Origin: a virus
Virus record (IMG/VR): IMGVR_UViG_3300035698_013865
Span: 1 to 28,245 of that record
Direction: 5' to 3' (one strand)
Length of the DNA stretch: 28,245 nt
Of the stretch, positions 1,101 through 24,681 are shown in pieces; within the stretch, counting starts at the first letter, position 1; every line of letters begins with the position of its first letter. The translations under genes and the position numbers were made by a program. A model generated the notes under the pieces. The model saw nothing but the letters and a program-made list of their open reading frames with translations. It ran no database searches and was not told the DNA's origin.

Positions 1101-4100
1101 CTATGAAGCCTGTTTTTTGGGGGGTTTCATTTTCCTGAGTTGGCGGGCAAGCCGGGTCCGATACGATTGTTTCGTGCTCGGGTTCTTGAGCTTGGCGTTC
1201 AGGAATTGGTTGTGGATCCGCAGCACGTCCTTCGTGTCAAGCTCGTGGGCGGCGAGCCACTCGCGGGCTTCCGCGACGCCGGCGTTGTACTCCTCGCGTT
1301 TATCCTTCCTGGTCGGGATCGGCCTGGAAAGCTTCTTGACACGAGCCAGGATGTCGACGTTGCGGGATTCGGTGTACTTGGACGCCTCCCCTTCCTCTTC
1401 CGCCGCCCGTCCCCACCAGTGCCAGAGCGTGACCTCCAGCTCGCGGGCGTAATCGCGGGCGACGCGCAGCTTGCCCCGTTGGATCGACGTGAGAAACTCG
1501 GTCTCGAATTCCTTTTCGTCCTCGTAGCCCATTTTCTGAGCCAGCGGGTCAATATGCTTCAGCGATTTCAGGAAGTCCTTGTAGCCCTTGCTGGACGTTT
1601 CCTCGAACTTGCGACGGGCATCGACGAACGCTTTGTAGTCGTTCGCTATAGCGGCGTCTTGCATCGTTTTATGCGGCGATCGGCCGAACCCCTGAGCACG
1701 GGGCTTGCCCTTTTCCTTGTAATACTTGTCGCGAAGATCGTGCATCGCATACAGAGCGGTCCTGCGAGGATCGACGACGCCCAGGCCCGTGAATTTGGTC
1801 GCGTAGTTGGGTCGGGCTCGCGTGCCGTTGCCGGTGAGTCGCCCCTTGACTTCGCGGAATTCGTCGCGAACACCAGCGATGTTCGCCAGAGCTTCGCCGC
1901 GGTCCACTGATCGTGGATTCGCGAAGTCCGGGAACAAGCTCTTGCCGGTTGCGACCTCGAAGCCGCCCTTGATGTCCGGCCGCAATCCCTGAATGACCTT
2001 GTTGACCGGGTCTTTCGCCGCTTCGACCAGCAAATCCTTCATCGTGATCTGCCCGGATTCGTATTGCGGCAAAAGTGACGCGATCGTATTCACGCCGAAC
2101 CATTCGAGGAAATCGCCGAGGGCTCCGGTATTCCGCAAGACTCTTACCGAACCGTCGGGCGTGCGACCCATCGTGATATGCGGATTCGATCTGTCGTAGT
2201 CGCCAAGATCCTCTTCGTCGTCGGGATTCACCAGATTGTTCCAGGCCCACATGATCCCGTAGGGGACCGCAAGCTGTGACAATGCGAGCGATCCGAACAC
2301 GGCGCCGGCGAATGCGTTACCCTTGGCTTTGAGTCGGCCGTATCCAACGGCGTTGATCGCCAGCCGCGGCCAGCGTTTCAGGTTGATTTCTTGCCAGCTC
2401 CAGAACGGGCTGAGATTTTCGCGCATCCACTGGCCGAACACGGTCAGGTTTCCGTAATCGCCGAGCAGTTCGCGGGACAATTTCGCCGCCGCGACTTCTA
2501 CCCCCATCGTTGCTGCCAGGGAGTCAACGACTTCCTTTTTCGCGCTGCCGTAGGACTCCAACGTGCCAGCCTTGAGCTTGTCCAGGTAATGCAGATACGC
2601 GGCATATCGCAAGATGTTCTCGCGGAACGTGCTAAATTCGTGGACCGCGTCGAAATACTTCTGGACAAAGTTTCGCTCGCTAGCGTTCTCGGAATAGAAC
2701 CGCTGGAACACCGCCAGTTCTTTTAACTCGGGAATGTCGTTCGCCGTCATCGAAGACGACGTGACGCCGAGCTTGACAGCGCTCTGCAATTCCGGCGACA
2801 TCGACAGATTGCCGCGATACATCTTCCACAATTCCCCGATCGAGCGTTTCGCGTACTTCAGCGAGCCGGCCGCGCCGCCGATTACCGGATCGAGGTCGCC
2901 GGTCAGGTTGCGAGTCATGTAGCCGACGATCCGCGTCGGCGAGTACAGCATCAGAGCTTTCCACCATTTCATCGCGCCGCGGAGAACGTCGCTGACAGCG
3001 CCGTTCGGTTTGCCCTTTTCGAGTTCGCCGAGCTGATCGACTATTTCGATGGGCAATACGAACGACGCTCGCTTGCCGCCGATCACGCGAACCGCCTGGA
3101 GCTGGTCCTCGGTCAGCGGTACGGCCTCGCCGACGGCTTCCTGCAACGCCTCGATGATCTTCTCGGGGATCGTCAACGCCGTGTAGAACACGTTGCCGGG
3201 TTCGGGCTGCCATGCGGCGTAACCCTTATTCTCGCGTAACAGATCATTCCAATCGACCAGCTTGTTGCCGAGCACGTCGGCATAGAGCTTCCGCCGGTCG
3301 CTGATCGCCTTGAATACGCCCTTGGCGGCGATTTCGGCGGACTCGTTGCCGGAATGCCCGTCGGCGATCCAGTTCAAAAGCTGGAACCAGCGCGAGTCGA
3401 GGGAGGAGGAAGAGGCATCCTTAGACAGGTCCGCGATCCCGTCAAACGCATGAGTGTTGATCTGCCCATTCTTGATCATCTTGCGAATCTTGCCAGAGGT
3501 CCAGGCGATCTTCTGTCGCATGTAGTACGTCGGGTCCAGCTCCGAAAGCTCTTCGATCCAGCCGCGTCGTAATTCCCGCTGGTCGCTTTCGCCGCGATCC
3601 GGCGATCCCTGAGATTCTTTGACCAGGTCGCGCAGCTTGTGGATGCGGGCGACGTTCTCCGCCCCACCGACAAGCATCTCGAAATTGCGATCCTTGGCTT
3701 TTTCCTTCAACTGTCGAAGAATGCCGTACTCGCCGTCAAGCTCGGTTAACCGCTTTTTCTTTTCGATCTGAAGGTGGGCTTCGACCATCCAGGACTGTTC
3801 GGCTTCGATATAGCTTGTGTTGTAATCGAACTCGGGGCCGAGCTCTTCGACGCCCTTCACTCGTCGTTTCTGGAAGCCGCGCTTAGTCATATGGGCGCCC
3901 TGTTGCTGGGCAAACCGTTCAACCTGGAGATGCGACAGGACTTGCTGATGATAGTAGGTCTCGGCGGAGTTGAGCGCTTCGACCGGCAATAGTTCGTTCC
4001 CGACGAGGTCTTCGACCAACTCGACGATCATCTTCTGCCGTGTACTGAGCGCCTTGCGGACCGGAGCCAGCTCCTCGCTCGCAATCAGTTCGTCGAGGTA

Positions 4101-7100
4101 ATCGCGATACTCTTCGATTTCCTGGCGACTCTCAAATCCAAACCGGAGCGGTTCGCCGCGATCGAGCGACGCCAGCATATTTTCGACAATCACCTTGTCC
4201 GTGAATATTGCAAGCTGCTTCTTGCCCATCGGGTCGATGATTGCGGCGACGTCGCGATGGACCTTATCGGCGATCCAGTGCGGACCCTCTTTCAACAGGC
4301 GGAAGAATTCGTTCGCGGTCGCAAGGGGTCCACTGTTCGGCAGATACTCTTGCGCTCTGGTCGATTTACGCCATGCGGCGGATAGGACGCCCTTCGCCCT
4401 CTCCCTCCACGATTCAGATTGTGCTCCGCGAGCCGCAGCCATGCGATTAGCGACTTCGGGGCGAAGTTTGCCGCGTGCATGTTCCGGGATCGCATCCTCA
4501 CGGAGCGGCCTGCGCCCCTCGGGGATCGGAATGCCGGATGCGAGCGGCGGGGCCTCCTCGGGTCGTTCGTCGGCCTCGCGGCGTGCGACGTCGGCGGCGG
4601 ATTCGTTGCCGCCGGCGGCTGGCAGCCCAATGGGGTAATCGTGGGCGACAAGCTCGTGGGCGGTTACAGACAAGCGCACCGGCATAATCACCGCCAGGAA
4701 GCCGTTGCTAGCGTCGAGGCGCATCGGGCGGTCGCGTTCGCTATATCCCAGCGTGACAGTTCCGCTTTCGTTTGCCTGCATCCAGTCGAGGGCTTCCCAC
4801 AAGAACCGGGCGTTGTACCCGCCCAGCCTTCGCCCGTCGGGCTGGAGGTTGTACTGATACGTTATCTGGTTCTCTGTCGAGTGTTGCGAAAGCCCCAACG
4901 TGCCGTCCTGGTTTACATGCAACACGGCATCGTGATATACGCCCGATTTTGTACTGAGGCGTGCCCGGTTCAGCGCGAGCATGAACTTTTCAGTAACTTC
5001 AAATCTCGCGACCTGCTCGGTGTTCTCCGGGATTTTTTCTTTATATTCGGGAAAGCGGCCTTCGACCGTATCGCTCAAGTCTTTCGTATAAAGCCCGGGT
5101 TTCAAGCCCCACTTTTGCGGCTGGACGTGCATCCTTAGGCCGTCGGTCACGATGGCCTTGTCTTTTTCGACCTTGATCCCGTTGATCGCGTACCGGGAGG
5201 ATTCTGTCGCTGTTGCATAAGCCAGCAGCTTGACTTGGGCTTGCGTACGCGCCTTGCCCGGCTTCGTCGGAACCGGCTTCATGGTCATGGTTTTGTGCGA
5301 GGGTGTTTTCGGCACGCCGATGTCGTCGAGATCGAAGCCGACTTCCATCCCGGGCGTCAGTTCCCCGGCGCCGATTCCGAACACGTCAGGATCGATCCTG
5401 TACGCAACATCTTTCCACCGCCAGACAAGCTGGCGGTGTTTATCGACTACGAATACCGGATTGACCGCGAAGTCGCTTAAATTACGGGCGATATGGCGAA
5501 GCAACTCGGCGCCCGGGTCTTCTTTGGGGCCGCCAACGTCCAGCTCGCCGGCGCCGAGGACCATGTCAGCCTTGGTGCGGGTTTCGGGCCGAGCCCCCAT
5601 CTCGGCGAGAATGCCGTAGCGAGCCTCGTGAGCATTGAGCCAGTTAATATCTTCGTTTTCCCAAGCACTTACTACGCCCCGCCTCAGCGTTTTATTTTCT
5701 TCGCTAAGGCTTTCCGAAGACGTCCACTTTGAAGTATCGATTCCGGCGTCGCCGATCATCAATACGAGTTCCTTGAGAACCCTGCCCGACTTGCCCGATT
5801 GGAATAACAAACCTGACGGGGTGTGCCACAATCGCCATGCGTCCTCTTCTTGGCCTTTATCTGTCTTGCCCTTAAAAATGAAGAATTCGTCGCTGATTTG
5901 TTCGCCCGTGGCCTTGCCGGCGTCCCCGAGCGCAACCGTAGTCCTTTCGCCCTTCAACTTGCTCGCGCGATTTTTCAGGCCGCGGAAATACCGCAAGTTG
6001 GTCTGTCGTTTTTCGGCGGCCTCTCGATTGGCTTGGGCGTCTTCGACCGCTTTCTGTTCAGCTTCCTTGGCCCGCTTCTTGTTCTCTATGTCCGCTTTGC
6101 GAACCGCTTCTTTTTCCTGTTTCTCCCCGAGCTTGTCGGCGGCGGCGACTATCTCGTCGGCGCGGGCACGCCAGTTGGCGTCGTCCGCAGCGGCCTCTCG
6201 CAGCTTTGCTTCAATGTCGGCCAGCTCGTCTTCGGTCATGCGGGAGTAGCGGCCCCCGTGTTCCATTACTGCGCTGATCTCTTGCGACAAACGCCAAGTC
6301 CGAATTTCCTTGATAGCCGTTTCGGCGCTGGCTTTCATCGAACTGTCGCGCTGATAGCTTATTGACCATGACTGCACGGCACGGTCAACGACACGATTCC
6401 ATTCGTCCAGTTTCACAGCCTCCCGATCGAATCCGGCTTGCTCTACCGCGCTGGATGCAAGGTCGCGAAGCTGATCCATTATCTGTCGCTCGAAACGCTG
6501 GATTGCTTCCTTACGGGCGACATATGCGTCACGCCAATCCTTCACCGCCGCATGCCGCCCCGGTTGCTTGGTGAGGTCTAGGGCGACGGACAGGCGATAC
6601 TCTACCGGAGCCCCTTCGTCGTCGAGCCGCTCCCATTGGTACATGCGGTTGGATTCTTCGCTGTTTCGCTGTAACTGATCGTCAATCTCGTGATATTTTT
6701 CTTTCCGATTGTCTAGTTCGGAATCCAGCTTTCTACGCTTCTTGTGCGCGTTCCGCCGCGTTTTGACGATTTCGTTTTCGAGGTTGTTGATTTCCCTGCG
6801 AACCGGATCGAGCTTTTCGTGCAGAGCTGTCGATAAAACTTCGATCGCCTTGCGCCGCTTGTCGCGCGCCTCTTGCGACTGAGGGATGTTGAACACATTC
6901 GCGATTATTTTCAGGTCTTGGTCCGACGTGCGGGGTGCGCGGATCTCGGGGCGCTCCGCGAACGTCTTCGGCTTAGCCACCGGCGGGGCCTTGGCTGCCG
7001 GCTTCTTCTGCTCGGCCGTCGAGCCTGTTGGTTTCGCGAAGTGTTTGCGAAGAAACTGCTCGGCGCTGGCCTGCGCCGCATCGCTCGTCTTGCGCCGCCA

Positions 7101-9368
7101 CGTTTGGCTTGATGGGTTAAATTTCCACTTTAGCTTTTCTAATTCATGGCGCTGGTCTTCGTTTAATTCTTCGTCAAAAGTAATACGAACAGTTTCGCGA
7201 TACCGCACGTAAGAAGCACTGCCGTATTTTCTGCCGTTTGGAATCCGGGAGGAACCATCGGCCGCTGCAGTGGCGTCCTCGGTCTCTTTCTTCGTTTGCC
7301 AGGCTTCCTGGTCTTTGCGTTCCCCTGCCCGGCGCTTGTCGAAACGAATCGTGTCTTCGAGATCGTCAGGCTTGACCCATTCGTTGTACGACTCCCCGGC
7401 TTTCTTATCGCCCAGCGCTACCTCGAAGCCGTGTTCGGGGTGAACCCCTACAATGGTTCGTTTTCCGTCAGGGGATTCCCAAAAACTGCCGACCTTGGCG
7501 AGCTTGTCCCGCGTTTCGGGCGTAGAAGGTGGAGAAGCGGCGTCCAACTCCGCAAACTGCTTCAAGGCGCCTTCCTTGAACTTGTCGGCTTTGGTCCGCG
7601 TCAGGGAATCTATCGCCGGATCAGACAGAACCTCGTCAGAGTCGTCTATCGCCTCCTGGAGCGAAGCCCGTTTCTCCTCGACGGACAAGGCACCGGACGC
7701 TGGCGGTTCACCAATCATTTCATCCAGCCGTTCCCGATATCCCTTCCGGCGTTCCTCGGCAGCCTTGGCCTCGGCAGCGGCATCTTGCCGATTTAGCTCA
7801 ATTTGGGCCTCTAAGCGATTCTCCAGGCTTTTGGGACTCTTGGGTCCACTTGGCGGCGTAGCGTCGCTCTTGCGTGGCGTCTGTGGTTTTTTCGCCGGCT
7901 CTGTGGCCTCCGGCGGTCCCTTTGGCCCCTTCGGTTTGTCAACGGCCTGTTTCAGTTCCTCGACGAGTGCCGCCCGGTCGGGTTTGCTCGTATCGTCGGC
8001 ATTGATCCCGGCTTTCTCGAACGCCCCGCGGCTGGTCGGGTCTTCGGCGTCAATAATCGATTGGACGCCGACGGGATCCTCCTCGACCATCTTGGCCGCG
8101 AAGTCCGTCCGCTTCTTGCCGTCCTTCAGAACTGCGGCCAGGGCTACGCCACCGGCAGCCGGCACGGCGAACCCGGCGGCCATTTGGGCGGTTTCGTACC
8201 CGCTGGGGATTTTCCCTTCGAGCCCCGGCGTCAGGATCCGCATGGCCTCGCCGAGATACTCCTCGCCGATCTCCTCGGCGATCCCGTGATATCCGACACG
8301 CTTCATGTATTCCGCCGACTTGGCGAAATTCCAGCCGGTTTTCTTTGAGATTGCACTGACCAGGGCGGTTTTGAACCCGACGACTTTTTCAGCCGATACG
8401 CGGAGAGCGGGAGAAGTGCGTCCAAGGCCCCCGGCGACTTTTCTGCCAACCCTGCCGAATACGGCGCCCGATCGCTCGGAGACAATCTCAATCGCCGTGT
8501 CGGTAAATCCCTTGGGCAATGCCAACCACCATTCATCACCCAGGTGTTCGGGATTCTGGATGTACTTCAGGGCTTCTTTGTCACCCGGCTGAAGCGTGTA
8601 ACCCGGAATCATTCGTTGAAGAGTATTCGTCGCGACGCGAGTCCCCATCAAAGCCGTGCGTGCGGCGGTTTCGGCGGCCTGCTCTTTGAGCCAGCCACCG
8701 ACAAGTTTGGATAACGATTTCTTCGCGGCGTCCTCAGCGACTTTCTTGCCGCCCTTCTTGAGTATTTTCTTGCCAGCCGAGTACAGTCCGCCCGTCATGA
8801 GGAATTCGGCCGCAAACGGAAGCGATTCGGCGACAATGTCGGTCGCCCCACCCATGAATGTTTTGCCGCGGGCCGCGATGGCAAGCTGCTCGAAATACTG
8901 GGTGAGCGTTTCCATTTGCTTTTCGGACGCCTCCCCCTCCTCCTCCGCCTTGGCCGCGCCGAGAACTTTGTAGAGGTCCACTGCGTCTGCTCCGCTACCC
9001 AGGAACGGAACCTTGCGGATCAACCCCTTGCCGGTCGCGAATTGCTCGCCAGCCCTTTCGGCCATCGTAGCCGGCCCCCGGATAGCGGGGATCGCCGGCA
9101 GTCCGTACTGCTGTCGCACTTTATTCAGCTTGGCGACTCGCTGGGCGGGCATCATGTCGTCGTAGGTGGGCAGGTTGCGGATGTACAGCTCCGCGTTCGC
9201 GGCGGCGACTCGATCTCGGCGGTCCAGTTTGGGATCAGAAGCCTCCTCGATCGACATCGGCTGGGGCGTGATCCCGTCGCTGTTGCGGAAATCATCGATC
9301 GACATCGGCGCGGGTTTATTGCGCGACAGCTCGTGAAACTGGTCTAATGCCTGGGGAACCTGTGACAT
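1101..9368 (-). CDS. Giant internal/polyvalent virion protein (2755 aa) with a sliding-clamp-like module
   Basis: ATG at 9368 has GGAGG 8 bases upstream, lying in the last codons of the preceding gene. Layout by residue: 1-100 has two PMSI motifs (21-24, 37-40); 175-205 and 359-419 hold weakly hydrophobic segments separated by a Lys-rich stretch; 460-520 is Pro/Lys low complexity; 720-775 resembles the small domain found in phage and conjugative-element polyvalent proteins (F-x-W-x-R core); about 830-1135 is highly charged coiled coil; 1376-1566 resembles the DNA polymerase III beta clamp (see separate entry). The remaining C-terminal third has features typical of large polyvalent phage proteins, such as 'AETYYHQQVLSHL' and, near 2141, 'SPTRIVGYMTRNLTGDLDP'. 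It is the last gene of the minus-strand block, after two Gln/Ala-rich proteins, which is where podovirus ejection proteins sit. No protease, methylase or polymerase motif was recognised. The role as an injected internal virion protein is inferred from size and position. Confidence 0.85.
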   Translation of the reverse strand: MSQVPQALDQFHELSRNKPAPMSIDDFRNSDGITPQPMSIEEASDPKLDRRDRVAAANAELYIRNLPTYDDMMPAQRVAKLNKVRQQYGLPAIPAIRGPATMAERAGEQFATGKGLIRKVPFLGSGADAVDLYKVLGAAKAEEEGEASEKQMETLTQYFEQLAIAARGKTFMGGATDIVAESLPFAAEFLMTGGLYSAGKKILKKGGKKVAEDAAKKSLSKLVGGWLKEQAAETAARTALMGTRVATNTLQRMIPGYTLQPGDKEALKYIQNPEHLGDEWWLALPKGFTDTAIEIVSERSGAVFGRVGRKVAGGLGRTSPALRVSAEKVVGFKTALVSAISKKTGWNFAKSAEYMKRVGYHGIAEEIGEEYLGEAMRILTPGLEGKIPSGYETAQMAAGFAVPAAGGVALAAVLKDGKKRTDFAAKMVEEDPVGVQSIIDAEDPTSRGAFEKAGINADDTSKPDRAALVEELKQAVDKPKGPKGPPEATEPAKKPQTPRKSDATPPSGPKSPKSLENRLEAQIELNRQDAAAEAKAAEERRKGYRERLDEMIGEPPASGALSVEEKRASLQEAIDDSDEVLSDPAIDSLTRTKADKFKEGALKQFAELDAASPPSTPETRDKLAKVGSFWESPDGKRTIVGVHPEHGFEVALGDKKAGESYNEWVKPDDLEDTIRFDKRRAGERKDQEAWQTKKETEDATAAADGSSRIPNGRKYGSASYVRYRETVRITFDEELNEDQRHELEKLKWKFNPSSQTWRRKTSDAAQASAEQFLRKHFAKPTGSTAEQKKPAAKAPPVAKPKTFAERPEIRAPRTSDQDLKIIANVFNIPQSQEARDKRRKAIEVLSTALHEKLDPVRREINNLENEIVKTRRNAHKKRRKLDSELDNRKEKYHEIDDQLQRNSEESNRMYQWERLDDEGAPVEYRLSVALDLTKQPGRHAAVKDWRDAYVARKEAIQRFERQIMDQLRDLASSAVEQAGFDREAVKLDEWNRVVDRAVQSWSISYQRDSSMKASAETAIKEIRTWRLSQEISAVMEHGGRYSRMTEDELADIEAKLREAAADDANWRARADEIVAAADKLGEKQEKEAVRKADIENKKRAKEAEQKAVEDAQANREAAEKRQTNLRYFRGLKNRASKLKGERTTVALGDAGKATGEQISDEFFIFKGKTDKGQEEDAWRLWHTPSGLLFQSGKSGRVLKELVLMIGDAGIDTSKWTSSESLSEENKTLRRGVVSAWENEDINWLNAHEARYGILAEMGARPETRTKADMVLGAGELDVGGPKEDPGAELLRHIARNLSDFAVNPVFVVDKHRQLVWRWKDVAYRIDPDVFGIGAGELTPGMEVGFDLDDIGVPKTPSHKTMTMKPVPTKPGKARTQAQVKLLAYATATESSRYAINGIKVEKDKAIVTDGLRMHVQPQKWGLKPGLYTKDLSDTVEGRFPEYKEKIPENTEQVARFEVTEKFMLALNRARLSTKSGVYHDAVLHVNQDGTLGLSQHSTENQITYQYNLQPDGRRLGGYNARFLWEALDWMQANESGTVTLGYSERDRPMRLDASNGFLAVIMPVRLSVTAHELVAHDYPIGLPAAGGNESAADVARREADERPEEAPPLASGIPIPEGRRPLREDAIPEHARGKLRPEVANRMAAARGAQSESWRERAKGVLSAAWRKSTRAQEYLPNSGPLATANEFFRLLKEGPHWIADKVHRDVAAIIDPMGKKQLAIFTDKVIVENMLASLDRGEPLRFGFESRQEIEEYRDYLDELIASEELAPVRKALSTRQKMIVELVEDLVGNELLPVEALNSAETYYHQQVLSHLQVERFAQQQGAHMTKRGFQKRRVKGVEELGPEFDYNTSYIEAEQSWMVEAHLQIEKKKRLTELDGEYGILRQLKEKAKDRNFEMLVGGAENVARIHKLRDLVKESQGSPDRGESDQRELRRGWIEELSELDPTYYMRQKIAWTSGKIRKMIKNGQINTHAFDGIADLSKDASSSSLDSRWFQLLNWIADGHSGNESAEIAAKGVFKAISDRRKLYADVLGNKLVDWNDLLRENKGYAAWQPEPGNVFYTALTIPEKIIEALQEAVGEAVPLTEDQLQAVRVIGGKRASFVLPIEIVDQLGELEKGKPNGAVSDVLRGAMKWWKALMLYSPTRIVGYMTRNLTGDLDPVIGGAAGSLKYAKRSIGELWKMYRGNLSMSPELQSAVKLGVTSSSMTANDIPELKELAVFQRFYSENASERNFVQKYFDAVHEFSTFRENILRYAAYLHYLDKLKAGTLESYGSAKKEVVDSLAATMGVEVAAAKLSRELLGDYGNLTVFGQWMRENLSPFWSWQEINLKRWPRLAINAVGYGRLKAKGNAFAGAVFGSLALSQLAVPYGIMWAWNNLVNPDDEEDLGDYDRSNPHITMGRTPDGSVRVLRNTGALGDFLEWFGVNTIASLLPQYESGQITMKDLLVEAAKDPVNKVIQGLRPDIKGGFEVATGKSLFPDFANPRSVDRGEALANIAGVRDEFREVKGRLTGNGTRARPNYATKFTGLGVVDPRRTALYAMHDLRDKYYKEKGKPRAQGFGRSPHKTMQDAAIANDYKAFVDARRKFEETSSKGYKDFLKSLKHIDPLAQKMGYEDEKEFETEFLTSIQRGKLRVARDYARELEVTLWHWWGRAAEEEGEASKYTESRNVDILARVKKLSRPIPTRKDKREEYNAGVAEAREWLAAHELDTKDVLRIHNQFLNAKLKNPSTKQSYRTRLARQLRKMKPPKKQAS
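1380..1404 (-). repeat. Homopurine tract + GGAGGCGTCC, copy 1 (giant gene, 3' part)
   Basis: On the minus strand a purine run is followed by GGAGGCGTCC (1389-1380). It lies in frame as ...EEEGEAS in the C-terminal part of the giant protein. Confidence 0.6.
4671..5243 (-). other. Beta sliding-clamp-like module inside the giant protein
   Basis: Residues 1376-1566 of the 2755-aa protein. Visible matches to bacterial DnaN: 'SSRYAINGIKVE' (1390-1401) and 'VTDGLRM' (1407-1413) correspond to the RyxLnGi...ATDGhRL block of clamp domain II. 'VEGRFPEYKEKIP' (1435-1447) corresponds to the v(d/e)GrFPDYrrviP hinge before domain III. 'GYNARFLWEAL' (1517-1527) corresponds to the GFNarYLldaL strand/helix, and 'VIMPVRL' (1560-1566) to the C-terminal vvMPmRL that ends almost all bacterial clamps. 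The second half of domain II is shortened to about 20 residues and no separate domain I was seen. The module is therefore about 190 residues against about 370 in a full clamp. Confidence 0.75.
7044..7211 (-). other. PolyVal-type small domain inside the giant protein
   Basis: Residues about 720-775 contain a strand 'VRITFDEEL' (727-735), a helix 'NEDQRHELEKL' (736-746), then 'KWKFNPSSQTWRRKT' with W748, W757 and R758. A Ser/Ala-rich helix follows. The order strand, helix, GFxWxP-like turn, W-x-R, helix is that of a small domain often seen in polyvalent proteins of phages and conjugative elements. The assignment is by eye. Confidence 0.5.
8925..8948 (-). repeat. Homopurine tract + GGAGGCGTCC, copy 2 (giant gene, 5' part)
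   Basis: Same core at 8934-8925 after a GGAGGAGGAGG-type run. It encodes EEEGEASEK, so the same peptide occurs near both ends of the giant protein. Confidence 0.6.
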
Positions 9369-9371
9369 TCT

Positions 9372-10442
9372 CTAACCTCCGAATTCTGGACGCACGGCCT
9401 CCAGTTGCCCCGTCATCGGGTTGAACTTCCAGTACCAGCCGTTTCTTGGTCCCCAGAGTTGATTCGGGTCGATCTCGTCTGGATTCTTCGGCAACTGGTC
9501 GAACGGAAGCGGCTCGTTGGCGTCCCCTTGCCCTGGGACAGCATTCGCGCCAACGCCCTGGTCCTGCGCGCCCCACTCGCTGCCGTACCCCTGAGCGGCC
9601 AGATCTTCGGGTGTGACGCTTCCCGGATCCATGGATATCATGCCGTTGTCTCGCAGGTATTTCAGTTGAGCCAGCTCGGCTGCAATAGTCGCCTCTTTTT
9701 GGATTTGGTTGTTGATTTCGGCGGCAATCGCGTCTGCCGGAATTGGTAATTCAGCGCCGAGATCATCGAGATGTTCCATGCGACCGCGAATGGCTTCTTC
9801 GGCCGCCTTGGCACGCTTGGCGTCATAACCGCTGCCAGCGGAGCCGCTGTCCGCCTTGGGTTCGGGGATCGGCCGTCCAGTCATTTTGCCATCGGGCTGT
9901 ATCGTGTAATCCCACCATGTTCCGTTGGGCATTTCTTTTTGGAACGATCGCTCTGCAACCTGTTCCTCGATCGACTGCTTCCTTTCGCCGCGAGGCCGGC
10001 GAGACTTTTTGAATCCAGAAAGCTGAACCTTGGCGTCGCGTTCAACCTCTTCCAAGGCTGCGCCAACTATGCTGGGGTCGGCCCTTGCTGTCTCTACCGA
10101 CTCATATATCGCATCCATTTCCTCAAGGCTTTTCACTGACCACTTGTGTTCCCAAAGCTCATCTTCTTCTTTCTGCGCCTGCTCCGCGGCGACCTGTTGC
10201 TCCTGGATCGCCGCCCGTTGCTGCAACATTTCCTGCTGATGTTCCTGTGCTTGTTTCTGAGCGAACATTTGCTGGAGAATCGATGCGGCTTGCGACATGG
10301 CGGCCTGCTGCCGTTGGGCTTGAGCCGCCTGCTCCTGAGCGAGTCGTTGAGTTTGTCGTTGGTATCCGCGAGCCCGCGTTCCGGCGGCCGCCCCGGCGGC
10401 GATCATCGCCCCGCTCATGTTATTTTGAAAGACTGCTGGCAT
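9372..10442 (-). CDS. Gln/Ala-rich coiled-coil protein, candidate internal virion protein
   Basis: 356 residues. The N-terminus (3-22) is small-residue rich and mildly hydrophobic. Residues 25-95 are a long Gln/Ala/Glu coiled coil, with further charged helices to about 150. The middle is basic (KKSRRPRGERK). The C-terminal 60 residues are Pro/Asn/Gly-rich and end in a 'WGPRNGWYWKFNPMTGQLEAV' type block. AAAGGAA precedes ATG 10442. The stop is 3 bases before the start of the giant gene, whose Shine-Dalgarno overlaps this gene's end, so the two are translationally linked. Position and composition match the small internal/ejection proteins of podoviruses; there is no specific family match by eye. 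Confidence 0.75.
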   Translation of the reverse strand: MPAVFQNNMSGAMIAAGAAAGTRARGYQRQTQRLAQEQAAQAQRQQAAMSQAASILQQMFAQKQAQEHQQEMLQQRAAIQEQQVAAEQAQKEEDELWEHKWSVKSLEEMDAIYESVETARADPSIVGAALEEVERDAKVQLSGFKKSRRPRGERKQSIEEQVAERSFQKEMPNGTWWDYTIQPDGKMTGRPIPEPKADSGSAGSGYDAKRAKAAEEAIRGRMEHLDDLGAELPIPADAIAAEINNQIQKEATIAAELAQLKYLRDNGMISMDPGSVTPEDLAAQGYGSEWGAQDQGVGANAVPGQGDANEPLPFDQLPKNPDEIDPNQLWGPRNGWYWKFNPMTGQLEAVRPEFGG

Positions 10443-13884: not shown

Positions 13885-16521
13885 TTACACCATCCGAACT
13901 TCGCCGCCGAGTTTCAACTTGGCGGTAATTTGCTCAATCGCCCACGGATTAATCGAACCACTTTTGCTGTCGATCCGCAACACGGCGGCGTAGCCCCGCG
14001 CCCGAGGTCTGGCTCGTTTCCCCGAACCCGCAATCCAAGAACCCGTGAACCGCGTGATGTTGGACGCCTTCGCCTCCTCCACCGCCTCTTGGCCAGTTTT
14101 TCCGACATAGAGATTCCAAGTTATGTCGCCGCCGTTGCTGTCGAGTATCGCGGACAATTCCAGCAGTTGCCCGTCGTGATCGACGTTGCCCAGGCGAAAC
14201 GGTCCGATCAGGGCGTAATTGCTAATTTCGGTCAATTCGTCTTGAGCCGCTGCCTTATGCGGGCGGCGCAGCCATCCATCGGCGTTACCGATCCACATGC
14301 CGCGGTCAATGCTGATCTCACTTTCGCGATCGAAAGCAGAAGTGGGAGCGAAGGCGTCCGGAAGCTGATCTCTGAAAAACCCCTTGGTGCGCCAATCGAA
14401 CCACCAGTGTTTGAGCGAGCCGTGGCCCAACGGCGACAGGTAAATGTGGATGCCAAGGTTCTCGGTGTCGAACGCCATGAACACTTCATACTGGGTCGGA
14501 TCGACGTTCAGGAGCGCTTTCGGAAGCTGATTGCGCGAAAGCGATTCGGGAACAGAACTGGCACTTGGCGACAATGCGTAAAGCCCATCGCGAGACAGAA
14601 AGATCAGCCATTGGTCTGGAGTACGACACCACGCTTGCGGCCCGATGACTCCCGTGTTTCCCAGCGAATCTACCCGCCCGCCGTAGGTCGGATCGCCGCG
14701 CATAACCCAAAGGGTTTTGCTGCAACCGAAGATCAGATAGTCTTCCATGCTGGGGATCAACGCTGTAATGTGATCGCCCATGCGGCCGCTTTCGGACAAA
14801 ACAGACACCCGGGCGGCGCCAACATCTTCCGCAGCGTAATCCCAATCAAACGGATCACCTTGGCGACAGGCGTACCACGTAGTCCCTTCAGCCAGGAATA
14901 TCCGATCACTGAACTTGGCGATATGACTTGACGATGCCGGCAATTGCCCCTCTGTTACCAGCGAAGCCCAATACGAAATGGTTTCAGCGATCGGATCGTA
15001 CACTTTCAACGAACCGCTTCTGATTATGCCTTCAGCCCTATAATGCGTGCAAAGAGCCGATTCCGCGCCAGTCCAGTGTCCCAATCCATCCAATCGCTGG
15101 ACTTTCAGCCATGTCGGGCTTACTGGATCAAAATCCCAAAGAATCCCGGTAATTCGATAAGTCCCCTCGACACCGTTGGGGCCAGCTCCAGGCCTGGTAA
15201 ACCTTATTGTTACCGAATCGCCATAAGTAAAAAGTGCAAGCTCAGCTTCCGTTAATGCGTCCATACACTCGATCGCGTTGCTTTCGTAAGACATGTGATA
15301 GTACGCTTCGATAATCGGCCTCAAATATAAAGCGTCGTGCTGGGGATTGGCGATGAAAAGCTTTTGCTCGTAATCGACTGCCCGGAACGATTTGCCAGGG
15401 TCGAGCCTGGCAGCACACGGGATGATGGACATCCCCCCGCGGATGTCTTCGGCATACAAAAAACTCCCTTTGCTGCCAACGGTGATGTTGCGAACTTTCG
15501 GAGCTTGGTTTGAAACCGCATCACCTTCAGTTACCACGTCGCCTGAATCGACGGCGGGCCGCGTCCGGTAACGCACGTCGAAATGGTCCGCGACGCACAC
15601 TCCTCCGACAGCGAGGGCCGTCATAGCAAACCCGACTCCGTAACCCCAAATATTGGCGTAAAGGAGTCCGCCAGCAACCCCAGACGAATCGCCAGATGCA
15701 AGCGTTAAGCCGTTGGCCAGCAACTCCCATTCAACGTAATCGTCGGCGTAGGACAATGAACCTCGATTCCACGAAATTACCAACTGAAGCAGAATCGGGA
15801 CCGGGCCGTGCAGGTTGATTGCACCTTCACTGTCGTTGGCTTCGTTCCCGCCTCGGCAGTAATCCACAGTGCCGGTAATGGTTCCGGCGGCCCCTCCATC
15901 CGGGTTAATCACAACCGTTGCCCGAATTCCCTCTTTAGTCGTGCCCGAATAAGGGGACTCGTAATTCAATCCATCATCAGTCAACCTCAGCGATGAAAAG
16001 ATTTCATAGCTATTGCTGGTATACGCGCCTTCGTGCGGCAAGATTCGCAAGCTGTAAACGCTGGTGATTCCGCTCGTAATGCCATCCTTGGTGTACGGGT
16101 GGATCTGCAATTCATCCGCGGGCCGAATGGTTCCACCCATCTGGCTGGGATACGCGACGCTGACCTTGCCATCGGCAACGCCTGTCGGCAATCCGCCGGC
16201 AATCCAGCTTTCAGCTTGCCAGACGTCGCCCAGGGAATCGCCGTCGAAGTCTTCTTGCCACAACTCGAACGCCCGGTCGCCTGACGCCAAATAGCGCACG
16301 TTCGCCAACATGCGAACCGGCGTACGCGATCCGGTCAATCTCGACATTCCGCAGCGGGAGTAGCCCGGGCGGCGTCCAAGCCGTGCCCGCTCCTCCAGCA
16401 CGTCAATCGGGCGCACGTTCAGAGCCGCCGGCGTCGTATACGGCGGCTGGCTCTGAAAGGCTACGCTGTGACTTTCGCCCTTAAGCGGCGGCAGTAGCGT
16501 TATTCTGCGAGTCCTCGCCAT
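13885..16521 (-). CDS. Tail nozzle (tail tubular B / P22 gp10-like) with inserted lectin-like domain
   Basis: 878 residues. The start is ATG 16521, which shares its A with the upstream TAA (TAATG), replacing a longer frame that begins inside the upstream gene with unlikely Arg-rich sequence. The N-terminus (20-60) 'PPYTTPAALNVRPIDVLEER...GRRPGYSR' is typical of podovirus nozzle proteins. Residues about 88-320, beginning 'EDFDGDSLGDVW', look like a concanavalin-type jelly roll inserted after the N-terminal segment. From 330 on, repeated strands such as 'FSDRIFLAEGTTWYACRQGDPFDW', 'DYLIFGCSKTLWVMRGDP' and 'QWLIFLSRDGLYALSP' indicate a beta-propeller, as in P22 gp10 and T7 gp12. Nearby are adaptor and appendage genes. 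Expected to form the hexameric exit tube for DNA. Confidence 0.85.
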   Translation of the reverse strand: MARTRRITLLPPLKGESHSVAFQSQPPYTTPAALNVRPIDVLEERARLGRRPGYSRCGMSRLTGSRTPVRMLANVRYLASGDRAFELWQEDFDGDSLGDVWQAESWIAGGLPTGVADGKVSVAYPSQMGGTIRPADELQIHPYTKDGITSGITSVYSLRILPHEGAYTSNSYEIFSSLRLTDDGLNYESPYSGTTKEGIRATVVINPDGGAAGTITGTVDYCRGGNEANDSEGAINLHGPVPILLQLVISWNRGSLSYADDYVEWELLANGLTLASGDSSGVAGGLLYANIWGYGVGFAMTALAVGGVCVADHFDVRYRTRPAVDSGDVVTEGDAVSNQAPKVRNITVGSKGSFLYAEDIRGGMSIIPCAARLDPGKSFRAVDYEQKLFIANPQHDALYLRPIIEAYYHMSYESNAIECMDALTEAELALFTYGDSVTIRFTRPGAGPNGVEGTYRITGILWDFDPVSPTWLKVQRLDGLGHWTGAESALCTHYRAEGIIRSGSLKVYDPIAETISYWASLVTEGQLPASSSHIAKFSDRIFLAEGTTWYACRQGDPFDWDYAAEDVGAARVSVLSESGRMGDHITALIPSMEDYLIFGCSKTLWVMRGDPTYGGRVDSLGNTGVIGPQAWCRTPDQWLIFLSRDGLYALSPSASSVPESLSRNQLPKALLNVDPTQYEVFMAFDTENLGIHIYLSPLGHGSLKHWWFDWRTKGFFRDQLPDAFAPTSAFDRESEISIDRGMWIGNADGWLRRPHKAAAQDELTEISNYALIGPFRLGNVDHDGQLLELSAILDSNGGDITWNLYVGKTGQEAVEEAKASNITRFTGSWIAGSGKRARPRARGYAAVLRIDSKSGSINPWAIEQITAKLKLGGEVRMV

Positions 16522-16763
16522 TACGTGACCTGCGCTACCCAACTCGGTGCAGTGCCTTCGCCGGCATCTTCTTCGTTGATGTAGAGGGTCTCGTCGTCGG
16601 CGCCGTCGATCTTGATGAAAATGGCGCCCTTCGCCCAGATCGTTGTCACCGGAAGGGCGGTTCCCCACCCGAACAAATTCCCCTTGCCTGGAATGTAGAT
16701 GATGTTCCCCGACTGTTCGAATTCGCCATTCGCCAAAGTGTGTTGAATATTGTGCAGTCCCAT
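16521..16763 (-). CDS. Small beta-rich phage protein (80 aa)
   Basis: AAGGAGAG precedes ATG 16763. The protein is 'GIIYIPGKG'-like: a short strand 'NIIYIPGKGNLFGW', then 'WAKGAIFIKIDG' and 'ETLYINEEDAGEGTAPSWVAQV'. The GAIFI...YINE.G...W pattern is common in small proteins beside capsid and connector genes of tailed phages, where they may decorate or stabilise the particle. Translation is coupled to the nozzle gene by TAATG. Function not established. Confidence 0.72.
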   Translation of the reverse strand: MGLHNIQHTLANGEFEQSGNIIYIPGKGNLFGWGTALPVTTIWAKGAIFIKIDGADDETLYINEEDAGEGTAPSWVAQVT

Positions 16764-17444: not shown

Positions 17445-18446
17445 CTAATAAGAAACACCGTTGTACGTAGTCAACCCTTCGGTGCGGAACGCTCTTCGCC
17501 CGCCGTCAGAATTATCCGAATTATAGCCAAGCGATTCCGGTGCGGATGCCCGGCGATCTTTGCCGAGGCTGCCCGCAAGTCGTTGCGCGAATTCCGCTTG
17601 CTTGTCTTTTTCCCCATCGTTGAATCGCTTTTCGGCCGCGGCCAGGACAGAAGCCTTGATCGTGTTGGAATGCACCGCCCCGCCCAGCGGGTAAGGATTG
17701 TCGGCCGACAATTTGTTACTCGGGATCGCGTTGGTTTTATAGAGCAACGAGTAATACGTGTCGGGCGTCGGGTACAACAGCAAATTGAATCGTTGGCCGG
17801 CGCTGCTGTCGCTCGTTAGCCATTCAACCGCGGCATGCGTTGGCCGGCCGGTACGTGTTCCATCGTTGCGTCTCTTGCGAATGACTTCCCGCGACGTGAG
17901 TACAATCGACGGTCTTTGTACGGACCCGTCGTCCTCAAACATCAGGTCGCCTTCAGCGCCGGCAAAGGAATCCGGCAAACGATAATCGCCAGCACTGAGC
18001 GAACAAGTCCTGTTCGTGCTGGTCGCGTTCCCCGTAACCTTGATGACGGCCGCCGACACATACTCTGAAATAACAAAACTGCCAATGTCCATGACGAGGA
18101 ACGTCAGGCCGACCATCGACGGATAAAACGAGCCGGTCGAGCATGTTGCTGTAAGCGTCGTGGCGTCGGTTTCCGCATCATATACGCCCGTGACCGTCCT
18201 GACCTCTGAATCTGCCGTCAGGGCCGCCCATACGTCAAGCAGAGCCGTAGGCTTGAGGAACGACCACTCGTAATCGATTGGTGCATAGAGGAAGTCGCGA
18301 TAGCCGTCCTGGACGCAAATGTCTGCCTGCGTCGCCTCGTCTGCGGTCAAGCCCTCAGCCACGCTCCCGAAATAATCCCAGCCCAGGAACATGGCGACTT
18401 CTCGCATTAAATCGAGGTACGTCAGCGTCAATCCAGATTCGGCCAT
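17445..18446 (-). CDS. Head-tail adaptor (tail tubular A / gp4-gp11-type) candidate
   Basis: 333 residues from ATG 18446, with AGAGGGAA upstream; the GTG one codon earlier is a weaker start. The N-terminus 'TYLDLMREVAMFLGW' and 'ADICVQDGYRDFLYAP' is the helical opening of phage adaptor proteins. The C-terminal part 'FNLLLYPTPDTYYSLLYKTNAIP', then 'SNTIKASVLAAAEKRFND', is the typical end, with a beta hairpin and a long helix. A variable beta insert (about 70-150) rich in Thr and Val lies between. The position between capsid and nozzle genes fits a ring joining portal to nozzle. Confidence 0.78.
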   Translation of the reverse strand: MAESGLTLTYLDLMREVAMFLGWDYFGSVAEGLTADEATQADICVQDGYRDFLYAPIDYEWSFLKPTALLDVWAALTADSEVRTVTGVYDAETDATTLTATCSTGSFYPSMVGLTFLVMDIGSFVISEYVSAAVIKVTGNATSTNRTCSLSAGDYRLPDSFAGAEGDLMFEDDGSVQRPSIVLTSREVIRKRRNDGTRTGRPTHAAVEWLTSDSSAGQRFNLLLYPTPDTYYSLLYKTNAIPSNKLSADNPYPLGGAVHSNTIKASVLAAAEKRFNDGEKDKQAEFAQRLAGSLGKDRRASAPESLGYNSDNSDGGRRAFRTEGLTTYNGVSY

Positions 18447-18467
18447 CACATTTCCCTCTGTGCTCGA

Positions 18468-20373: not shown

Positions 20374-21414
20374 CTAGTCCTTGTACAGAATCGCCAAACG
20401 ACGACGATTCTTGCAGAAGAAGTTGTAACTCGTGTCGACGTTGCAGCGGATCACGTTGGGCTGTCGCGGGTCGCCGGCCGTCGGTTTCGTCAGCCGCATA
20501 AACCAGCCGCGAAGGAAGAACGGGAAGAATACCGCCCAGTTGATGAACAGGATCGGGTTGGTCGTGTCGGCGTCGAGGAACGGAGCCCACTTGATCGGGT
20601 TGCCGCGGAAAGTCATGCGGCCCGCATAATTCTGGAGTTCAGAACCATGGTTCTCGTTGCGTGCCTCGCCCAACTCTTCGAGCGCCTGCTTCGTCTCGTA
20701 ATTGACGTAGATCGCGTAGTCGTCGGCTCCCTGCTGGTTCTGGGGCATGTCGGTCGGCGACACGAAATGGATGTGGTCGTAAGCGTTTCCCATTTTGCGA
20801 AGCAGATCAGCTTTCGTGACGTGGGAATAAGTCCCGGTCCAGTTGCGCCACTTGGGATGCGTGACAGACGACAGACCGCCGTAGCCGCTGGCGAATCCCG
20901 CCGGATTACCGCCGTAGAACCCTTCGCTGGCATTTCGCACCAGCGACATGTAGACGCCCCAGGGCGTCGTCACGTCGTCCGAGTTCTCAGGCTTGCTCCA
21001 GAAGTCGGTCTCGATTCGCTCAACCAACGACGCCATCGAATCGGCATGCCGAACCTTGATGATGTCCACGATCTGTTCGTCGCCTTGGTTCATGTCCGGC
21101 TCGCGCAGGTCGAACGAATAGTTCGTGTTGACATGTCGCATCGGCACGCGAACGCTCGTCAGCACGTCCTGGACGTCGTAAGTGTTTTCCTGGAACAGGC
21201 CGACGTTCTTGGCCGCTCCGGAGTGTTTGGTCATTACGGTTGTCTTCCAACCACGCCCGCCGGCAAACTGGACCTTCTTTTTCTTCAGGATTTGCGGGAC
21301 CGCATGGAACTCCTGAAGATCGTGGACTAAATCGGTCCACACGAATTTGTCTTCTTTGTCGCGCGTCGCTACCACCATGTCGGTGATCGCATCCACGGTC
21401 AGTTCTGTCGCCAT
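20374..21414 (-). CDS. Major capsid protein candidate (HK97-type)
   Basis: 346 residues, with GAAGGAG before ATG 21414. It follows the scaffold candidate and precedes the decoration protein, the canonical place for the capsid gene. It opens 'ELTVDAITDMVVATRDKED' and has 'KKKKVQFAGGRGWKTTV', then 'NYSFDLREPDMNQGDEQIVD' and 'WTGTYSHVTKADLLRKM', a beta-helix-beta pattern of HK97-fold shells. The C-terminus 'MRLTKPTAGDPRQPNVIRC' and 'YNFFCKNRRRLAILY' is also typical for a capsid of uncultured podoviruses. The assignment rests on gene order plus fold-like features. Confidence 0.82.
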   Translation of the reverse strand: MATELTVDAITDMVVATRDKEDKFVWTDLVHDLQEFHAVPQILKKKKVQFAGGRGWKTTVMTKHSGAAKNVGLFQENTYDVQDVLTSVRVPMRHVNTNYSFDLREPDMNQGDEQIVDIIKVRHADSMASLVERIETDFWSKPENSDDVTTPWGVYMSLVRNASEGFYGGNPAGFASGYGGLSSVTHPKWRNWTGTYSHVTKADLLRKMGNAYDHIHFVSPTDMPQNQQGADDYAIYVNYETKQALEELGEARNENHGSELQNYAGRMTFRGNPIKWAPFLDADTTNPILFINWAVFFPFFLRGWFMRLTKPTAGDPRQPNVIRCNVDTSYNFFCKNRRRLAILYKD

Positions 21415-22956: not shown

Positions 22957-24681
22957 CTATCCATCCATCGCCGCCGCTTGCGAATTCTGCGTGCCGGCGC
23001 CCGCTAACATTTGCTGCATCATCTGGTCGTTCCCTCGCCGCGTAGCTCCAGGCGAGACATGCTCGTAAGTCCGTTTCGTGTTGGCCGGCATGCCGGGCTG
23101 TTTGGACGCCTCCCTCCTCCCTCCACCCTGCGATCCCATAAACAGGAAATCGGACATTTCGGGCTCGATCCCTTCCAGGCGAGCAAAGAGTTTCAGGAAC
23201 CCGCGGAAGTCGATCGTGATGCCTTGGGCGGCTATCGCTCCAGCCGCCGGCGTGATGAACTTTTCCCACAGCATGTACACGGACTTCAGAATGCTGTCCG
23301 GCGTGCGCGGTCTGAGCGAATACGGATCAATTTTGACGTGGTAGTCGTCGAAGTCGCCAATCCGATCCTCTGGACCCCATTCGACATGGAACGAGATCTT
23401 GCTGCGTCCGACATGCCGCGTCAGGCGATGCGTCGTGTCTGGATCGGACCACAAGTACCACGCCATCTTGTGCATGATGGCGCCGGTGAATTCGCTGACC
23501 CGGGCGGCCATCGAATCAATTTGCTGGCCGGCGTTGGCGTTGAGCAACTCGTCTTGGCGGGCCGTGCCAGATTGGGGTCCAAGCCCGCCCATCAGTTCAA
23601 GCCCGCCGGCTTGCACCATGAATGCGTCTTTGGCCCCCAGGTACGCTTGCTGCAAACTGGGACCGGGGCCGCCCCAGCTCATTTCCTTGACGCTGTCGAT
23701 CCGGTCTACTGTGATTACTTCGCCGTCTGACGATCTCTGGATTCGCGCGGCGTCTTTTTCGGCCCCCTTCTCCGCGACCGTTACCGTTTTCGCACGTTCG
23801 GCTTGTCGGCCAATTTTGCGGAACAATCGATTGGTGAGATCGTGCAGGTCTCGCGTCGTCATAACCGGCGCCAGCGGCATGGGATTGTCTGGTACGATTC
23901 CAAACCCGAGATATTCATACATGCCGTCTTCCGGGCCGCTCCAATCTTGCGTCATCAGGGCTTCGGTCGGATCCTCGGCGGCTGCCGTAACGATCAAGCT
24001 GCGTCGCGGCAGATAGAAATTGACCAGTTCGACCTCGTCTTCGAATGGCTCGTGGCTGCCGCTCTGGCCGACTGAGATTTCAGACGTCTTTTCCGTTCCG
24101 TCTGCGGCGGTGGCATGCGGCGACGTCGCACCCAGCTTTTTGCGAGCATCGGCGGCGTAACGCTTGTCGTTGCGGGCTTCTTCCAGATTGACCAGGAACC
24201 GATCGCCGACAAACGAGACCGTGTCGCGCCGCTTGGCGTTCATGTCGAACACAAAATCATCAAGGCTGATGTGCGTGGCGAACGGCAAATTCGTCGCCCT
24301 ATCGACGCCAGTCTTCATGATGCCTATGCAGTAAATCGCATCGATGACTGCGAATTCCAATTCACGCTTGAGCTTGATTTTCTTTATCGTTCGGCCAAGT
24401 GCAACTTCCAGGGCCGCGGCGTTGGGCTTCAGCGGCCCGTACTCGGTAGACGCCAACCCCCGCGGCTCGCCCCCGATCAACCGCCAGGACAAAATTTGAA
24501 CCAACATCTCCAACAGGTTCACGGGAACCTTGTCGTCGGCGCCCTCTTTGCCGTAGTGCTCGCCGACTACTTGCTTCACGACTTCGCTGCGTTTCGTGCG
24601 GAATATGCCGAATCGCAAATCGCTGTCTTTCGCCGCGTTGATAAGCCGATTGAATTCTTTATTGCTAAGAAAACCCGCCAT
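22957..24681 (-). CDS. Portal protein
   Basis: 574 residues from ATG 24681, which shares an A with the TerL stop (TAATG); a TTG two codons earlier is unlikely. It has 'SWRLIGGEPRGLAS', a central 'HISLDDFVFDMNAKRRDT', a 'VIPDNPMPLAPVMTTRDLHDLTNRLFRKIG' helix region and a long C-terminal helix ('GQQIDSMAARVSEFTGAIMH'), followed by a Gln/Met/Ala-rich tail. This order and its place directly after the large terminase fit the podovirus portal that forms the 12-subunit DNA gate. A polypurine motif copy lies at its 3' end (residues 'GGGRREASKQ'). Confidence 0.85.
   Translation of the reverse strand: MAGFLSNKEFNRLINAAKDSDLRFGIFRTKRSEVVKQVVGEHYGKEGADDKVPVNLLEMLVQILSWRLIGGEPRGLASTEYGPLKPNAAALEVALGRTIKKIKLKRELEFAVIDAIYCIGIMKTGVDRATNLPFATHISLDDFVFDMNAKRRDTVSFVGDRFLVNLEEARNDKRYAADARKKLGATSPHATAADGTEKTSEISVGQSGSHEPFEDEVELVNFYLPRRSLIVTAAAEDPTEALMTQDWSGPEDGMYEYLGFGIVPDNPMPLAPVMTTRDLHDLTNRLFRKIGRQAERAKTVTVAEKGAEKDAARIQRSSDGEVITVDRIDSVKEMSWGGPGPSLQQAYLGAKDAFMVQAGGLELMGGLGPQSGTARQDELLNANAGQQIDSMAARVSEFTGAIMHKMAWYLWSDPDTTHRLTRHVGRSKISFHVEWGPEDRIGDFDDYHVKIDPYSLRPRTPDSILKSVYMLWEKFITPAAGAIAAQGITIDFRGFLKLFARLEGIEPEMSDFLFMGSQGGGRREASKQPGMPANTKRTYEHVSPGATRRGNDQMMQQMLAGAGTQNSQAAAMDG
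23104..23128 (-). repeat. Homopurine tract + GGAGGCGTCC, copy 4 (portal gene)
   Basis: Core at 23113-23104 after GGAGGGAGGAGG. It encodes GGGRREASK, so here the peptide differs from the other copies upstream of EAS while the purine tract and core are kept. Confidence 0.6.

Follow-up and report, generated by a model that had tools for sequence, protein, structure and literature searches.

The structural operon and the giant gene at its end

The window, that is, the whole stretch of a 28,245-base virus record analysed here, contains a minus-strand operon in the order of terminase, portal, scaffold-like protein, capsid protein, connector and tail proteins, with a giant gene as the last member. 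All features described below lie on the minus strand. The terminase large subunit (24681..26711) matched phrog_2 (E = 1.3e-11), and the portal-type protein (22957..24687) had a weak match to phrog_332 and was related to 24 viral loci. The major capsid protein (20374..21414) matched phrog_9953 (E = 1.6e-4) and is kept in relatives. Furthermore, the head-tail connector-type protein (17445..18449) is kept across the group of related phages, and the tail (nozzle-like) protein (13885..16668), recognized by blastp, is kept in contigs G001 and G015. Upstream of the giant there is a candidate internal virion or accessory protein of 356 amino acids (9372..10442), proposed from its position and coiled-coil-like sequence only. 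No polymerase gene was found within the 28,245 bases; the window is a fragment, and the phage's own replication genes are outside view. In another virus record, L003 (IMGVR_UViG_3300029258_003415), the portal and capsid proteins are 79% and 83% identical to those of the window, and this contig stops short of the giant.

The giant gene is an uninterrupted ORF of 2755 amino acids (1101..9368), predicted to encode a large polyvalent or internal virion protein. Whole-protein searches against viral contigs, phages and plasmids found no close relatives of it. Its N-terminal region (residues ~167-380; 8229..8870) is common to a 1368-aa Planctomycetota giant, and residues 291-382 gave a match to LPD14 that is below the cut-off (E = 0.048). 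In addition, a small beta-rich domain (residues ~1138-1220; 5709..5957; pLDDT ~75-85 in the predicted structure) is common to the giant of contig G015 and adjoins the clamp piece in both proteins. This domain had no Pfam or PHROG match and, apart from the G015 giant, was not found in 392 Planctomycetota genomes and viral contigs.

Gene-order comparison showed that the giant is encoded where related phages have giants of their own. Portal-related contigs keep the gene order of the window and end in three giants, two of them complete (3675 and 3974 aa) and the third incomplete (at least 2643 aa). Both complete ones contain ART-PolyVal above the Pfam cut-off and, by eye, HExxH-like metallopeptidase motifs. 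No clamp was found in these syntenic giants, and blastp detected no sequence similarity between them and the giant of the window. Thus, a shared position is established and a shared protein identity is not. Since the giant ends the terminase-portal-capsid-tail operon and its syntenic counterparts carry ART-PolyVal or metallopeptidase-like motifs, the most plausible reading of this multidomain protein encoded among late virion genes is a large polyvalent protein. This agrees with the polyvalent, virion-associated setting that had been proposed in the initial annotation.

A truncated beta-clamp inside the giant

Residues 1376-1566 of the giant, which correspond exactly to nucleotides 5243-4671 (4671..5243, minus strand), form a truncated beta-clamp (DnaN) module, as judged by motifs, profile matches and predicted structure. 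The initial annotation had reported a chain of clamp signatures here without naming the strand. We found all five of them in the right order, namely RYAINGI (1392-1398), TDGLRM (1408-1413), VEGRFPEY (1435-1442), GYNARFLWEAL (1517-1527) and VIMPVRL (1560-1566). The similarity was also confirmed by searches. The NCBIfam profile TIGR00663 (dnaN) matched the segment with E = 5.3e-8 (32.2 bits) and the whole protein with E = 6.7e-5 (22 bits), both scores being far below the family cut-off of 137.65 bits. Meanwhile, the processivity factor profile phrog_947 matched the segment with E = 5.4e-9, the PDB DnaN sequence 7rzm with E = 1.1e-4 (phmmer), and DnaN proteins of other loci with E of about 1e-12 (blastp). 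Chance resemblance is ruled out by these several independent profiles (TIGR00663, phrog_947 and the PDB phmmer search), and the segment is confirmed as a homologue of the bacterial beta-clamp.

Two further checks that had been suggested gave mixed results. Pfam returned PF02767 below the cut-off (E = 0.22), and the curated search found no match of PF02768 in the segment, but TIGR00663 and phrog_947 were significant; Pfam family-level search is too insensitive for this segment. An AlphaFold model of the module (mean pLDDT 65, with ~75-86 in domain III and ~50-62 in half domain II) matched DnaN residues 135-366 (Foldseek E ~1e-9, VIA-align Z ~15-16). However, the model was built from an alignment of DnaN sequences, so the match means compatibility and not independent proof. 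In addition, the base composition of the module resembles the rest of the giant gene, and thus gives no sign of recent insertion.

The alignment to E. coli DnaN showed which parts of a clamp are kept. The first half of domain II (residues ~1376-1430; 5079..5243) runs from RYAINGI to TDGLRM, and the second half is deleted. It is followed by the inter-domain linker VEGRFPEYKEKIP (residues 1435-1447; 5028..5066), which aligns with the RFPDY linker at E. coli P242-P249, and by domain III (residues ~1448-1566; 4671..5027), which is covered by the profile matches and the best-modelled part of the structure and ends in VIMPVRL, the C-terminal [V/I]xMPxR motif. In domain II the module has nothing that corresponds to E. 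coli residues 181-195, 203-210 and 219-233, and smaller gaps occur elsewhere. The spacing between TDG and the VEGRFP linker is 24 residues, compared with 62 in E. coli DnaN; among 92 clamps it was 64-75 in 33 from Planctomycetota and 54-76 in 59 from phages. The initial annotation had described a shortened domain II and all of domain III, which holds for domain III and for part of domain II, but only the first half of the latter is present. Domain I is absent, since profile and Pfam matches begin in domain II and nothing was found upstream, and the known dimer interface therefore cannot form. On the domain III side of that interface, positions I272 and L273 are T and K in the module, and the acidic patch E298-E301 is partly deleted or changed. 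Judged from the sequence, the module is a defined truncation that cannot make a normal ring clamp.

The module shares with DnaN, TIGR00663 and phrog_947 domain III, the linker, the first half of domain II and the pocket positions. However, it differs from them by lacking domain I and half of domain II, by lying inside a 2755-aa protein and by scoring 32 bits against the cut-off of 137.65.

To describe the docking pocket, we used a list of 18 clamp pocket positions taken from a review (PMC11139829). All 18 positions are occupied in the module; the residue agrees with E. coli at 10 of them and with the Phycisphaerae DnaN consensus at 12. The matches include I155, F323 and D344, residues that the Phycisphaerae lineage also has. 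Subsite I is changed at three positions (H175>L, R246>E and V247>K). When pocket positions were compared with equally conserved non-pocket positions, 10 of 16 against 15 of 28 were kept with phage DnaN as reference (P = 0.75), and preferential retention of the pocket is unsupported by this comparison. With Phycisphaerae DnaN as reference, P was 0.12 and 0.02 at two thresholds, so that any retention suggested by the sequences would be at best weak. The pocket is thus kept in position, and any selection on it is hypothetical. With such an altered pocket, the proposal in the initial annotation that the module could recruit or sequester replication factors is a hypothesis.

The chromosomal DnaN of Phycisphaerae and Sedimentisphaerales (L122-L155) has its own peculiarities: RYAING replaces RYYLNG, and an acidic residue stands at the position of E. 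coli R246 (YEDIIP), which is D in Phycisphaerae DnaN. This acidic residue is a lineage-specific change in an otherwise conserved pocket.

Recurrence of the truncated clamp and its origin

A search of related giants for the same module, which had been recommended, was successful. Most hits of the clamp-alignment scan were stand-alone DnaN genes, but it also returned one giant of 2822 aa with the same clamp piece (L095, on contig G015 of 46,202 bp). G015, a distant relative, has gene order in common with the window, and the two terminases are 40% identical. Furthermore, residues 1068-1449 of the window's giant matched residues 929-1285 of the G015 giant (blastp, E = 5e-9), from the beta-rich domain into the clamp piece, and the TDG-to-linker spacing is 24 in both giants. 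The G015 clamp piece has no C-terminal MPxR motif, and the alignment of its last strand is unsure. Given this recurrence, the clamp piece of the window is no assembly artefact, and random decay becomes less likely. G015 also encodes a replication initiation protein, a DnaC-like loader, an integrase and a DNA methyltransferase; no polymerase was seen among the larger ORFs that were read. A 1042-residue frame on a 59.7-kb viral contig (L105:4720-7845, G016) was also considered and rejected as the same architecture: it is a complete three-domain clamp whose domain II carries an insertion and whose C-terminus has a long extension.

The same truncation was also found in stand-alone proteins of 203-231 aa (L190, L194 and L186). 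They were obtained by a DNA pattern search in which the 24-aa spacing was the criterion, so only the existence of stand-alone mini-clamps counts as evidence. Like the module, they consist of half domain II, the 24-aa spacing and then domain III; L190 is 38% identical to the window's piece over 73 residues. In contrast, they are single genes of ~200-230 aa with an even shorter domain III, and the window's clamp is built into a giant. Shewanella phage SppYZU01 has a relative (SppYZU01_33) that is 35% identical to L190 across 99% of L190 and overlaps a gene annotated "putative DNA polymerase", which suggests that mini-clamps of this type work with polymerases. The arrangement in the window is different, because here the clamp is not a separate ~200-aa gene beside a polymerase and is embedded at residues 1376-1566 of 2755.

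Short phage clamps of phrog_3007 and phrog_6615, such as gp31 of Burkholderia phage BcepC6B, also carry domain II-III signatures and lie beside a DNA polymerase gene. However, gp31 of BcepC6B is encoded by a gene of its own, and its domain II is long (spacing 67). In BcepC6B (L113:3091-3606) and many related records, the phrog_3007 protein is named "RusA-like Holliday junction resolvase" and carries RYYLNGV, TDGHK and VDGRYPDY; for several phages, GenBank lists this protein as DNA polymerase III beta and RefSeq lists it as RusA-like. The RusA-like name of these clamp proteins looks like a propagated misannotation.

Regarding the host, a prophage in the Planctomycetota genome G405 (L164-L165) has the structural operon of the window together with an 1825-aa giant (L164:3842-9319), which contains a HEYGH metallopeptidase-like motif and no clamp. 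In addition, the 1368-aa giant of G017, also from Planctomycetota (L166:8083-12189), matched residues 167-380 of the window's giant (E = 4e-9). Based on this syntenic prophage and the N-terminal match, a Planctomycetota host is plausible but unproven. A Planctomycetota origin of the clamp piece itself was considered as well. It was suggested by the segment ATAxESSRYAING, for which all 34 confirmed loci are from Planctomycetota, although the query itself selected for that motif. Such an origin is unsupported by the diagnostic positions outside ATAxESSRYAING (9 versus 8) and by the domain III tree, in which the module forms an unresolved and very long branch (3.4 changes per column).

Possible role of the module

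In bacteria, clamps are the hub at which replication and repair proteins dock. We propose, with a probability of roughly 40%, that the giant is a large polyvalent protein of podovirus-like phages whose replication depends on a host-type replisome, and that it carries the ring-incompetent clamp as an injected docking surface. The giant would be packaged in the virion and injected together with the DNA. Inside the cell, the module would not slide along DNA as a ring; host polymerase, loader or repair proteins may dock on its clamp-type surface, and may then be drawn to the incoming DNA or kept from it. Between these two outcomes we lean slightly towards recruitment, because the SppYZU01 relative overlaps a polymerase gene and G015 has an initiator and a DnaC-like loader with no polymerase seen. 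The specific claim that this virion-delivered clamp mimic captures host clamp-binding proteins at DNA entry is a tentative one, and somewhat doubtful.

Other explanations should be weighed against this. The injected mini-clamp could be a decoy that titrates polymerases, mismatch repair proteins, or clamp-targeting defence or toxin proteins, and so slows host replication or repair. The same facts as above would serve it, and loss of the ring suits a soluble competitor. Moreover, polyvalent proteins are described as conflict effectors in the survey by Iyer et al. 2017 (PMC5512222). However, one copy per giant means low stoichiometry relative to the cellular clamps and their partners, and the pocket chemistry is partly altered, which leaves titration unlikely. 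We consider it equally unlikely that the module is a structural relic, in which a captured clamp fragment serves as a folded spacer or scaffold and binds no clamp partners. The identical 24-aa truncation and most core motifs recur in two giants from phages with terminases of only ~40% identity, and this argues for selection on a defined shape. On the other side are the long branch in the tree, the pocket residues that are not preferentially kept and the C-terminal motif lost in G015; with an altered pocket and a long-branched lineage, the relic explanation is still to be reckoned with.

Two explanations would give the module a part in a ring. The module retains domain III, which forms one side of the dimer interface, and might act as a poison subunit that pairs with domain I of the host's clamp, opening or blocking the host ring; the changes at I272/L273 and in the acidic patch make this very improbable. 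Still less credible is a complete processivity factor, in which the missing parts come from elsewhere in the giant or from another subunit and a ring still forms. Clamps of two domains that trimerise are known, as in PCNA and gp45, and Foldseek alignments of a longer model extend into the upstream region. However, this upstream region has no sequence match to domain I, the module has lost half of domain II, and once the upstream part is included the TM-scores fall to ~0.33 with an rmsd of ~11 A.

Returning to the injected docking surface, the large polyvalent proteins of Iyer et al. 2017 (PMC5512222) are among the closest known systems: they too are giant multidomain ORFs among late virion genes, and the window's syntenic giants carry ART-PolyVal. 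However, the replication-type modules given there are primases and virion RNA polymerases, and clamp, DnaN, PCNA and processivity are absent from the main text of this founding survey. We found no report of a clamp in a polyvalent protein in the open-licence papers searched. Clamps, mini-clamps and polyvalent proteins have each been known before, and what is new is the clamp module inside a giant polyvalent-type protein. If the proposal is true, it would be a clamp-type module undescribed so far among injected polyvalent phage proteins. The finding adds a replication-hub module to the domain list of polyvalent proteins, and the same cut-down clamp in two distant giants suggests that phages may bring in a docking surface of the clamp type along with their DNA.
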